Assembly (NCBI RefSeq): GCF_003605635.1
Contig: NZ_QMDW01000001.1
Location: 186,001 to 250,000, forward strand
Length of the DNA stretch: 64,000 nucleotides
Reading direction: 5' to 3'
Origin: Halonotius pteroides
GTDB lineage: Archaea; Halobacteriota; Halobacteria; Halobacteriales; Haloferacaceae
The notes under the pieces are model-generated. The model did no database searches, was not told the DNA's origin, and saw only the letters and a list, made by a program, of their open reading frames with translations. The position numbers and the translations under genes were made by a program. Below, in pieces: positions 48,046-52,442 of the stretch; position 1 is the first letter of the stretch; every line of letters starts with the position of its first letter.

Positions 48046-48720
48046 TCAGGCCACAGCCTCATCAACCGGCTCAACTCGGATCGACCGCGCAACCGACTCC
48101 GGCAAGCTCTGCTCGTCGCCGCTGGCGGTTTCGACGGTGATCATGCCGAACGGCGCGATATCGGTGAGTTCGAGTTCCGTGCCGGGCGTGATGCCAGCCG
48201 CTTCGAGATAGGTCAACTCTTCCTCGTCGCGGTCACTGACACGGCTGACGACAACGTGATCGCCGGTCGCAAACTCGGTGAGCCGGACGGCATCATCGCC
48301 CTCGATCGGGTCGAGTTCGACACCCGGAATCGGGTCGCCATGGGGGTCGACAGTTGGATTATCGAGGGCCTCAGCGACGCGGCGTTCGAACTCCTCGGAG
48401 ATGTGATGTTCTAAGGCGTCGGCCTCGTCGTGAACCTCGTGCCAGTCGTAGTCGAGCTGCTCGGTGAGATACGTTTCTAACAGGCGGTGGTGGCGAATCA
48501 CCTCTAAGGCGACGGTTTCGCCCTCCGCGGTCAACTCGACGCCGTTGTACTTCTCGTGGTCGATAAGCCCGTCTTCGGCCAGCGAACTCACCATGCTGGT
48601 GACCGTCGGCGGGGTTTTCTCAAGATACTCCGCGATTTCGGAGGTCGACACCGGCGGCCCGCCCTCGGTCTGAAGCACGTAGATCGCCTTCAGGTAGTCC
48701 TCCATGGTGTCGCTGAACAT
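48046..48720 (-). CDS. DtxR-family metal-dependent transcriptional repressor
   Basis: A 224-residue regulator. Residues 1-65 are the winged helix (MEDYLKAIYVLQTEGG, then TVTSMVSSLAEDGLI). Residues 66-140 are the dimerisation and metal-binding domain with VIRHHRLLETYL and ADALEHHISEE, where His and Glu would bind Fe(II) or Mn(II). The C-terminal part (about 150-220) is an SH3-like FeoA domain. It belongs to the SirR/Idr/TroR group of haloarchaea. A TTAGG...CCTAA palindrome in front of the small gene near dpsA is a candidate target. Confidence 0.92.
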   Translation of the reverse strand: MFSDTMEDYLKAIYVLQTEGGPPVSTSEIAEYLEKTPPTVTSMVSSLAEDGLIDHEKYNGVELTAEGETVALEVIRHHRLLETYLTEQLDYDWHEVHDEADALEHHISEEFERRVAEALDNPTVDPHGDPIPGVELDPIEGDDAVRLTEFATGDHVVVSRVSDRDEEELTYLEAAGITPGTELELTDIAPFGMITVETASGDEQSLPESVARSIRVEPVDEAVA

Positions 48721-48777: not shown

Positions 48778-50007
48778 TTATCCACCGGGGCCCATCAGAT
48801 GACTGCGGAGAATATCCGGGGTCTTGGTACCGGATTCGGTGTTGAGCAACACTACCGTCTCGTCGCCACCGAAGCCACCGTCATCGGCGTACCGCCACGC
48901 GCCAGCCGGGGCCGCGCCGCCGGCCGCCCCCATCTCGATGACCTCGTTGCTGGCGACGGCGACCGCCGATTCGAGGATCGCATCGTCGTCGACGGTGACA
49001 GCCGCCCCGTCAAGTTCCTCCAAGGCGGCGACAGCCTGCGAGCCACCGGCCGGATCAGGCACCTCTAGCTCGCCGACGATCGTATCCGGAACGGCCCACG
49101 GCTCGGGCGCGCTCGCGCCGCTGTCGACCGCGGTGGCGATCGGCGCACACCCCGTCGGCTGTACCGCAACCAGGGTTGGCGTCTCGTCAGCAACGCCAAT
49201 CGTGACCAACTCCTCGAAGCCAGCAGCAACCCCAACAACCACCTCGCCGGTGCTTGCTGGGACAAAAACGACATCCGGAACCGCGCCGAGATCCGCATAC
49301 AGCTCGAAGGCCAGGGTTTTCGCGCCCTCCTGTCGGTACGGCGTGGTAAACTCCTGCAGCGAGTAGTAGTCGCCGGCCAACTGCTCGTCGACAGCGTCAG
49401 CGGCATCCGAGTACCGCCCACCGACGACCTGCATCTCCCCGCCGTGGACGTTGATCATCGCCTTGTTCGAAAACGCCGACCGCGAGGGAACGAACGCGTA
49501 GCTCCGAACGCCGAGGCGGCGCAGATACGCCGCTGCCGACTGCCCGCTGTTGCCGGTTGTCGCCAGTGCAGCCGGTTCGACAGCCTCGGGAGCTGCTCTG
49601 GCTGCGATCGCGGTCGCCGCGACACTCATGCCGCGATCATAGACCGTTCCGGTTGGATTTCGGCTCTCGTCTTTGATGTAAACGCTGTCGACGCTGAGCT
49701 CGTCGGCCAGCCGATCGGCGGCGACCAGCGGCGTCGCCCCCTCGCCGGCGGTGACGGTGTCGGCGGCGTCGAACGGCAACAAGGCGTCATACTGCCACTG
49801 TCCGCGTGCGGACTGGCTCCCGGTGGTCACGGCTGTGTCGCGGGGAGGTGCACCGCGGTCGAACAACGCGGCAGCGTCGACCGCGTCGTAGTCGTAGGCG
49901 ACAGTGCAGGCAGTGCCGCAGGTCGGACAGCCCTGATCGGCATCAAGCGGGTGGATCGTCTCGCAGTCCGGACACCGTAGGCCCTGAACAGCCCCCGTTG
50001 GTTCCAT
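48778..50007 (-). CDS. Threonine-synthase-like protein without the PLP lysine
   Basis: A 409-residue fold-type II PLP-enzyme homologue. The N-terminus has a C4 zinc ribbon (Cys12, 15, 27, 30). The region that in threonine synthase reads SFKDRG, or TFKxRG with the Schiff-base Lys, reads GTVYDRG here: Tyr123 (TAT codon) replaces Lys. The phosphate-binding TTGNSGQSAAA and the C-terminal NTESGTKTPD are kept. Without Lys it cannot form the internal aldimine, so it is probably a pseudoenzyme or uses PLP differently. A true threonine synthase should be elsewhere. It stands alone, with no amino-acid genes next to it. Confidence 0.85.
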   Translation of the reverse strand: MEPTGAVQGLRCPDCETIHPLDADQGCPTCGTACTVAYDYDAVDAAALFDRGAPPRDTAVTTGSQSARGQWQYDALLPFDAADTVTAGEGATPLVAADRLADELSVDSVYIKDESRNPTGTVYDRGMSVAATAIAARAAPEAVEPAALATTGNSGQSAAAYLRRLGVRSYAFVPSRSAFSNKAMINVHGGEMQVVGGRYSDAADAVDEQLAGDYYSLQEFTTPYRQEGAKTLAFELYADLGAVPDVVFVPASTGEVVVGVAAGFEELVTIGVADETPTLVAVQPTGCAPIATAVDSGASAPEPWAVPDTIVGELEVPDPAGGSQAVAALEELDGAAVTVDDDAILESAVAVASNEVIEMGAAGGAAPAGAWRYADDGGFGGDETVVLLNTESGTKTPDILRSHLMGPGG

Positions 50008-51170: not shown

Positions 51171-52442
51171 ATGAGTCGTTCTGTTGTCGTTATCGGCGGC
51201 GGACTCGCCGGGTTGGTCGCCGCACGCCATCTCGCAGACGGTGGTGTGGCTGTCACGCTGTATGAGGCCGACGAGACAGTCGGGGGTCGCGTCACCACTC
51301 ACACCGAAGGTGGCTATACGCTGGATCGTGGCTTTCAGGTGCTGTTTACCGCCTACCCGGCGGTACAACGGGAGCTTGATCTTGCTGCCCTCGATCTCCG
51401 GCGGTTTTCCCCGGGCGCAACGATCGCTCGGCCCGGCAGTCGGTCGGTGTTGGCCGACCCACTGGGTGATCCGAGTGCCGCCCTTGCCAGTCTACTCACT
51501 ACTGAGGTCACCACGACCGACAAACTGCGAACGCTCGCGCTCCGGCAGGATCTTTCGACGCGAACCTACGACGACCTGCTCCAGCGACCCGACACATCGA
51601 TCCGTGGGTGGCTTCGTGAATGGGGCTTCTCCGAGCAGTACATCAACAACTTCATCGCGCCGTTCTACGGCGGGATCACGCTGGATCGGTCGCTGTCGAC
51701 CTCGAAGCGCGTCTTCGAGTACACGTTTAAGTCTCTCAGCGACGGCGACAGCGCGGTGCCGGCCGACGGGATGGCCGCGATCCCGCGGCAACTCGCCGCG
51801 GCCGCCGCCGACGCCGGGGCAACGATCCAGACCGACGAGGCGGTCACAGAGCTCCGACAAAAACGCCGCCACGCGGTCGTCGTCACCGACAACGATCGCC
51901 GCGCGGTCGACGCCGTCGTCGTGGCAACCGGCCCGCGACAGGCGGCGCGGCTCACCGACTGTGCGGCGATCCCGACCGATGGCGTCGGCTGTGTCACCCA
52001 ACACTATCGGCTCCCAGCGGCCGACGGTCTCGACACCGGGCGGCGACTCCTGTTGAACGCCGGCGGCAGCGCGCCGAATACGGTTGTACCGATGTCGACG
52101 GTTGCGCCCGAGTACGCGCCCGACGATACGTTGCTGCTGAATGCGACGTTCCTCGGCGACGACGCCATCGACACCGACAGCCAGCAACTCGCTGCCAAGA
52201 CACGCAAGACGCTGTCGGCGTGGTACCCCGAGCGGCAGTTTGACGGTCTCGAACCCCTACGAACCGACCGGATCCCGTTTGCGCAGTTCGCCCAACCACC
52301 CGGGGTGCACGAATCACTGCCAGCCGTTCGAGATGGCGGGCGACGCACCTATCTGGCCGGTGAGTACACCGAGTGGTCGGCGATTCAGGGCGCGATGAAA
52401 AGCGGCCGTGAGGCTGCCCGTGCGGTGCTTGATGACCGCTGA
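51171..52442 (+). CDS. FAD-dependent amine oxidase/phytoene-desaturase-like oxidoreductase
   Basis: A 423-residue flavoprotein. The N-terminal FAD motif VVVIGGGLAGLVAARHL is followed by the VGGRV motif (41-45) typical of amine oxidases, protoporphyrinogen oxidases and phytoene desaturases. The C-terminus has the FAD-closing segment TYLAGEYTEWSAIQGAMKSG. The middle substrate domain (about 85-330) is specific for a haloarchaeal NAD(P)/FAD family of unknown substrate. Carotenoid or porphyrin genes are not adjacent, so the reaction is open. Confidence 0.85.
   Translation: MSRSVVVIGGGLAGLVAARHLADGGVAVTLYEADETVGGRVTTHTEGGYTLDRGFQVLFTAYPAVQRELDLAALDLRRFSPGATIARPGSRSVLADPLGDPSAALASLLTTEVTTTDKLRTLALRQDLSTRTYDDLLQRPDTSIRGWLREWGFSEQYINNFIAPFYGGITLDRSLSTSKRVFEYTFKSLSDGDSAVPADGMAAIPRQLAAAAADAGATIQTDEAVTELRQKRRHAVVVTDNDRRAVDAVVVATGPRQAARLTDCAAIPTDGVGCVTQHYRLPAADGLDTGRRLLLNAGGSAPNTVVPMSTVAPEYAPDDTLLLNATFLGDDAIDTDSQQLAAKTRKTLSAWYPERQFDGLEPLRTDRIPFAQFAQPPGVHESLPAVRDGGRRTYLAGEYTEWSAIQGAMKSGREAARAVLDDR

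Follow-up and report, generated by a model that had tools for sequence, protein, structure and literature searches.

The window, the whole stretch of 64,000 nucleotides of Halonotius pteroides DNA that was analysed, encodes a threonine-synthase-like protein with Tyr at the position of the Schiff-base Lys that binds PLP. The locus raises the question of whether such a protein is still a threonine synthase, or a PLP protein at all, and what it is kept for if it is neither. The reading frame named in a preliminary description of this DNA was found, and its product (Table 1) belongs to the PALP family (PF00291, E 1.6e-60) and, by homology, to the fold-type-II PLP superfamily. The best NCBIfam models were threonine synthases, with scores under every cut-off listed, including 244.9 bits for PRK08197 (NF006050; cut-off 303) and 109.4 bits for TIGR00260 (cut-off 167.1). 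The S/T-F-K-D-R-G motif with the Schiff-base Lys of threonine synthases reads NPTGTVYDRG here, and Y123 (codon TAT, 49639–49641, minus strand) falls on the Schiff-base Lys of solved threonine synthases in the sequence alignment. A change from Lys to Tyr takes two base changes, as had been pointed out. Since Tyr is common to all five Halonotius rows of the alignment (the window protein and L038–L041) and to the Halohasta row L098, it is not an assembly slip. The PLP phosphate loop, GNAGN in canonical ThrC and GGG in the PRK08197 group, is STGEV in the window protein. The preliminary description had regarded the phosphate loop as kept; the TGN loop (T151-G-N153) is indeed retained, but the PLP phosphate loop itself reads STGE where Lys-bearing relatives have GGG.

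Compared with ThrC (EC 4.2.3.1; TIGR00260; PDB 2d1f, 2zsj, 6nmx, 1uim), the window protein has the same PALP fold, NPTG..DRG motif, TGN loop, substrate-side Arg and C-terminal Thr, but differs in the absent Schiff-base Lys, the changed phosphate loop and the scores below the threonine synthase cut-offs. The PRK08197 'threonine synthase' group comprises Lys-bearing haloarchaeal orthologs and copies at a second locus. The window protein resembles the orthologs in this group in the gene neighbourhood of many of them, in identity (~44–48%) and in the LRSHLM C-terminus, but scores 245 bits against the cut-off of 303, whereas the Lys-bearing L065 and L084 reach 379 and 388 bits, respectively. The zinc ribbon described earlier was also found, as an N-terminal region with four Cys (C12, C15, C27 and C30). 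Some of the ribbon cysteines are gone in several Haloferacaceae orthologs (L031, L032, L033, L036, L037, L060, L061), and zinc binding is therefore not kept throughout.

Table 1 Features of the Lys-less gene and two of its neighbours in the window.
Feature	Position	Strand	Basis or remark
Lys-less threonine-synthase-like protein, P0001, 409 aa	48778..50007	minus	Open reading frame and PALP homology
N-terminal zinc-ribbon-like region, C12, C15 ... C27, C30	49918..49974	minus	Translation and ortholog alignment
Motif N117-P-T-G-T-V-Y123-D-R-G126	49630..49659	minus	Y123 at the Schiff-base Lys position of relatives
Loop T151-G-N153-S-G-Q156, retained	49540..49557	minus	N153 falls on the Asn of TGN in threonine synthases
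Former PLP phosphate loop P250-A-S-T253-G-E255-V256	49240..49260	minus	GGGVG in Lys-bearing relatives
E255 codon	49243..49245	minus	Helix start in the model
E313	49069..49071	minus	Lys-bearing relatives have Gly; Glu recurs in those without Lys
T390	48838..48840	minus	Falls on the Thr in TLTG, a C-terminal segment of threonine synthases
C-terminus L400-R-S-H-L-M-G-P-G408	48784..48810	minus	Common to Lys-bearing orthologs; not in second-locus Lys-bearing copies
DtxR/MntR-type metal regulator (SirR-like)	48046..48720	minus	Next gene downstream, same strand
FAD amine-oxidoreductase-like gene (HVO_0817-like)	51171..52442	plus	Conserved divergent neighbour

AlphaFold2 gave confident models, with a pLDDT of 91.4 for the window protein and 90.1 for an ortholog that has the Lys. 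The best solved relatives of the window model in Foldseek were threonine synthases, and among the ten best matches the TM-scores to threonine synthase chains were 0.76–0.85, normalised by target length. The predicted fold thus agrees with the earlier claim that the overall fold is kept. Helix 255–269 of the window model starts at E255, and we take this helix start to correspond to the PLP phosphate loop of relatives. The segment with E313 aligns with the TIATAI segment, which packs against the PLP ring in related enzymes, and E313 would accordingly face the ring. A search for literature on PLP ring-sandwich residues returned nothing.

The absence of the Lys extends far beyond Halonotius. A search of 60 relatives gave a match at E<=1e-20 in all 60, canonical ThrC matches included. 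With a profile built from 33 Lys-less orthologs (A1), all 170 Haloferacaceae genomes matched at E<=1e-90, and the best match was below 1e-140 in 164 of them. Wherever the motif was read in Haloferacaceae orthologs, which covers part of the 170 genomes, the residue was never Lys but Leu, Tyr, Thr, His, Phe, Val or Ile. Many orthologs of other haloarchaeal families keep the Lys, as do second-locus copies in some Haloferacaceae genomes. Eleven low or split cases were looked at individually. Among the six genomes above 1e-140 (G016, G034, G155, G193, G206, G162), G016 has only a fragment at a contig end, G034 (70% complete) has copies with Lys only, and the G162 match (G162:C1:2774571-2775593) carries three stops; the Lys-less frame is split over frames in G155, G193, G206 and also G092. 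The motifs that could be read in Lys-less frames among these cases had His, Val, Leu or Phe. The interrupted or split genes in these few Haloferacaceae genomes may represent either assembly errors or recent loss.

For a wider count, 150 homologs were collected and three canonical ThrC set aside. Lys was absent in 100 of the remaining 147, in which some genomes are represented twice, and 12 different residues occupied the position. We considered Tyr as a functional replacement for Lys and rejected this, as orthologs have Leu, Thr, Val, His, Phe or Ile and the rows with Tyr fall into two distinct places in the phylogeny.

The Lys was lost more than once. We calculated an IQ-TREE phylogeny of 105 rows from which the columns around residues 120–124 and 250–257 had been removed; long-branch Lys-less rows (L073, L074, L076, L077, L083, L091, L092, L096, L097), L150, the divergent Lys-bearing L075 and L090, the partial L030 and near-identical rows were left out. 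This tree has six changes between Lys and non-Lys, at least five of them forced by supported branches, and none of 200 bootstrap trees had a single change. The changes lie at the Haloferacaceae, at L066, at L165 beside Halostella, at Halococcus, at a Natrialbaceae group (Natronorubrum, Natrialba, Natrarchaeobius, Natronolimnohabitans and Natrinema) and at L140, which has Lys within that group. Forcing a single Lys-less clade cost 313 log units (p-AU 3.7e-6), and one ancient loss of the Lys is rejected by the tree and the AU test for the rows covered, long-branch rows being left out. An earlier quick tree of 70 rows, with the long rows in (except L030 and L150) and no named loci, had two changes. 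In L140 (Natrinema salsiterrestre), where the loop reads GTG and E313 is present, the Lys seems to have returned by chance substitution. Ten genomes whose locus is Lys-less or falls in the Lys-less Natrialbaceae/Halococcus set were searched, that of L140 included and that of L165 not. In nine, no other match scored above the level of canonical ThrC; in G063 there is, in addition, a copy with Lys (L193, motif NPTNTFKDRG).

A second feature of the site varies with the Lys. Among the 47 Lys forms, 46 have GGG as phosphate loop, and among the 100 Lys-less forms 98 have another sequence there; when rows were dereplicated at 93% identity, these numbers became 43 of 44 and 76 of 78, respectively. The three exceptions to this pairing are L134 (Arg with GGG), L165 (Asn with GGG) and L140 (Lys with GTG). 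By these counts the PLP site decays as one unit, with joint loss of the Lys and the GGG loop. The sequences give strong support to a loss of covalent PLP binding. A relocated Schiff-base Lys is not indicated: no newly fixed Lys was found in the 76 Haloferacaceae rows, and conserved Lys residues such as K112 and K395, one of which might still serve, also occur in Lys-bearing relatives.

Because the Lys was lost several times while the gene was kept, the protein probably has another job, one that probably differs from that of threonine synthase. With moderate confidence, we propose a PLP-free pseudoenzyme that derives from a fold-type-II enzyme, similar to threonine synthase and with the Lys in place, encoded at this chromosomal locus; its role would be non-catalytic, probably the binding of a ligand or a partner. 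As in a pseudoenzyme, a catalytic residue is lost and the protein is conserved. The ancestor would have been a Lys-bearing fold-type-II enzyme at this locus, from which the Lys and the GGG phosphate loop were repeatedly lost. By alignment and the structures of related enzymes, carboxylates of the protein itself may then have come to occupy the empty cofactor pocket, with E255 where the former phosphate helix begins and E313 at the ring site. The remaining cleft, with its invariant Thr92, NPT, DR and Arg225, could bind an amino-acid-like ligand or interact with a partner. Less certainly, the non-catalytic job may already have existed before the Lys was lost, most likely involving an amino-acid-like ligand or a partner protein. 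The preliminary description named the right set of options in a sensor, a pseudoenzyme or a new activity, but overlooked that the loss concerns the whole family and took place more than once. The clade of TVYDRG proteins for which it proposed a test does not capture the natural unit: all Haloferacaceae orthologs read lack the Lys, further losses happened in other groups, and the GGG loop is lost as well.

Next, we compared residues in 76 Lys-less rows from Haloferacaceae, 17 Lys-less rows from elsewhere, 33 rows with Lys and 11 Lys-bearing rows from the second locus. The comparison omitted nine divergent rows and L140, and L113, L116, L124 and L150, whose records have no family name, were counted as Haloferacaceae by our placement. 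E255 and E313 were present in all 76 Haloferacaceae rows, where all 33 and all 11 Lys-bearing rows had Val and Gly. E313 also occurred in 11 of the 17 other Lys-less rows and in four of seven divergent Lys-less rows; E255 was missing in most other Lys-less rows. These two carboxylates could serve as acid/base or metal ligands of a new enzyme, with the old PLP pocket turned into a PLP-independent catalytic site. Their invariance in Haloferacaceae, the recurrence of E313 and the invariant substrate-side motifs such as R225, NPT and DR speak for such an enzyme. E255 is missing in most other Lys-less rows, however, and no PLP-independent enzyme of the PALP fold was found in our searches; we regard this reading as rather unlikely. 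The order of events also bears on E313. The Natrialbaceae rows L134, L142 and L153 lack the Lys and keep G313, and their sister group has E313, which suggests that the Lys was lost first and Glu313 may have been gained later. Convergence on E313 was rejected as proof, since it was not significant with five independent pairs (median p 0.5), and five pairs cannot reach 0.05.

A different set of residues may tie the Lys-less proteins to their locus. N186, R198, P307, I310, G312, E315, M405 and G408 are common to Lys-bearing and Lys-less orthologs and different in most second-locus copies. The sharing of N186, R198, the PDTI-G-E segment and the LRSHLM C-terminus between both kinds of ortholog, and not with most second-locus copies, fits a locus-specific role that would be older than the Lys loss.

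We then asked where the organism obtains threonine synthase activity. The assembly (115 contigs, 99.49% complete, 3.87% contamination) holds five PALP genes. L002 is the ThrC of this genome (motif NPTGAFKDRG; TIGR00260 293 bits, cut-off 167), and a homoserine kinase match scores over its cut-off. Hence, a normal threonine synthase exists elsewhere in the genome, and the finding that the preliminary description had set against its own reading, a genome with no other threonine synthase, does not apply. Judged by frame reading alone, L004, L006 and L008 look like threonine dehydratase, cysteine synthase and TrpB, respectively. Canonical ThrC with Lys was likewise found in the other genomes in which its motif was read. 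The coexistence of the two proteins would suit a dead subunit that joins normal ThrC, or some other PLP enzyme, in a mixed oligomer and adjusts its activity. Enzymes activated by a catalytically dead paralog are known, for example trypanosomatid deoxyhypusine synthase (PMC3663545). The window protein shares just 34% identity with its own ThrC, however, and the two genes lie on separate contigs, so that we think a dead subunit unlikely.

The Lys-less protein might instead still take up PLP or PLP adducts non-covalently, with no Schiff base, and use them in signalling or chemistry. Equivalents of N153 and T390 are retained in 85 and 65 of the 100 Lys-less rows, respectively, and part of the PLP site thus seems to remain. 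The phosphate loop is gone from nearly all of these rows, however, with Glu in its place in Haloferacaceae, and the Phe preceding the Lys is found in 15 of 100 Lys-less rows compared with 46 of 47 Lys rows. Non-covalent PLP binding is accordingly a quite unlikely reading; from the pattern of residues, complete loss of PLP is likely.

Nei-Gojobori pairwise dN/dS had a median of 0.200 in Lys-less (145 pairs, 0.069–0.318) and 0.189 in Lys-bearing forms (93 pairs, 0.077–0.317), with pairs that are not independent, and was 0.111 and 0.164 for the window gene against L038 and L039, respectively. The Lys-less gene is under purifying selection. Neutral decay towards a pseudogene, which the few interrupted frames described above might indicate, is highly improbable given a dN/dS as low as in Lys forms and a strong match in 164 of 170 family genomes.

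The pseudoenzyme reading places the ancestor at the same locus, and the gene neighbourhood was compared with this in view. Lys-bearing and Lys-less orthologs have upstream neighbours in common (the divergent FAD amine oxidoreductase, a metallophosphoesterase, a DUF7839 regulator and a DnaJ-like gene) as well as downstream ones (a DtxR-type regulator, GDT1 and LysE-type genes). Counts were restricted to loci flanked by 4 kb on either side. There, the amine oxidoreductase lay upstream at 48 of 55 Lys-less loci of Haloferacaceae, at 6 of the 19 remaining Lys-less loci and at 9 of the 25 with Lys; for the same-strand downstream DtxR gene, these numbers were 31 of 55, 1 of 19 and 7 of 25. The Haloferax order of amine oxidoreductase, Lys-less gene, DtxR, GDT1 and LysE is also found in Halobacterium (L133) and Halostella (L152), which keep the Lys. 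The Natronorubrum loci L128, L131 and L176 have none of these neighbours. Given that an MntR/DtxR-type metal regulator, a GDT1 cation antiporter and a LysE-type exporter are among the conserved genes around it, a divalent cation or an amine might be what the pocket now accommodates. The repeated, independent conversion of a PLP enzyme across haloarchaea would then have produced a cofactor-free protein with a two-carboxylate pocket that acts as a metal- or amino-acid-responsive member of the cluster, an idea that we offer as speculative and unlikely to hold as a whole.

In Haloferax volcanii the amine oxidoreductase is HVO_0817 and SirR is HVO_0819, according to PMC4300041 and PMC11349517, respectively. 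As these two genes flank it, the ortholog of the window gene would, by gene order alone, be HVO_0818. The HVO_0817-like neighbour is called phytoene-dehydrogenase-like in H. volcanii in PMC4300041; the best NCBIfam match of the 51171–52442 product was HpnE, with 112 bits against a cut-off of 283. PMC4300041 also reports that an insertion in thrC3 (HVO_2969) leaves a requirement that is satisfied by supplying glycine, serine and threonine together. This need for added amino acids suggests that a Lys-less gene, which should be present at another locus of H. volcanii, does not replace thrC3. The accessible text of a 2021 review of open H. volcanii function assignments (PMC8305020) has no mention of HVO_0817, HVO_0818 or HVO_2969, and no description of the Lys-less family was found in the available portions of the open-licence literature on haloarchaeal and H. 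volcanii threonine synthase, HVO and thrC names, and PLP pseudoenzymes.

PDX1.2 is reportedly a catalytically dead enzyme paralog. Like PDX1.2 and the dead deoxyhypusine synthase paralog, the Lys-less protein has lost a catalytic residue with fold and gene kept; unlike them, it shows repeated loss at one orthologous locus. This locus provides a natural series from enzyme to non-enzyme: Lys forms, forms with loss of the Lys only, forms that have also lost the phosphate loop, and forms with the ring-site Glu in addition. Cofactor loss thereby becomes testable in a genetically tractable archaeon, H. volcanii. For this gene of nearly all Haloferacaceae, annotation as threonine synthase is to be avoided. 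Several Haloferax genomes also carry a further paralog (~34% identity) with a single in-frame stop within the match, for example at G074:C2:1645479-1646549 and G081:C1:242405-243499.
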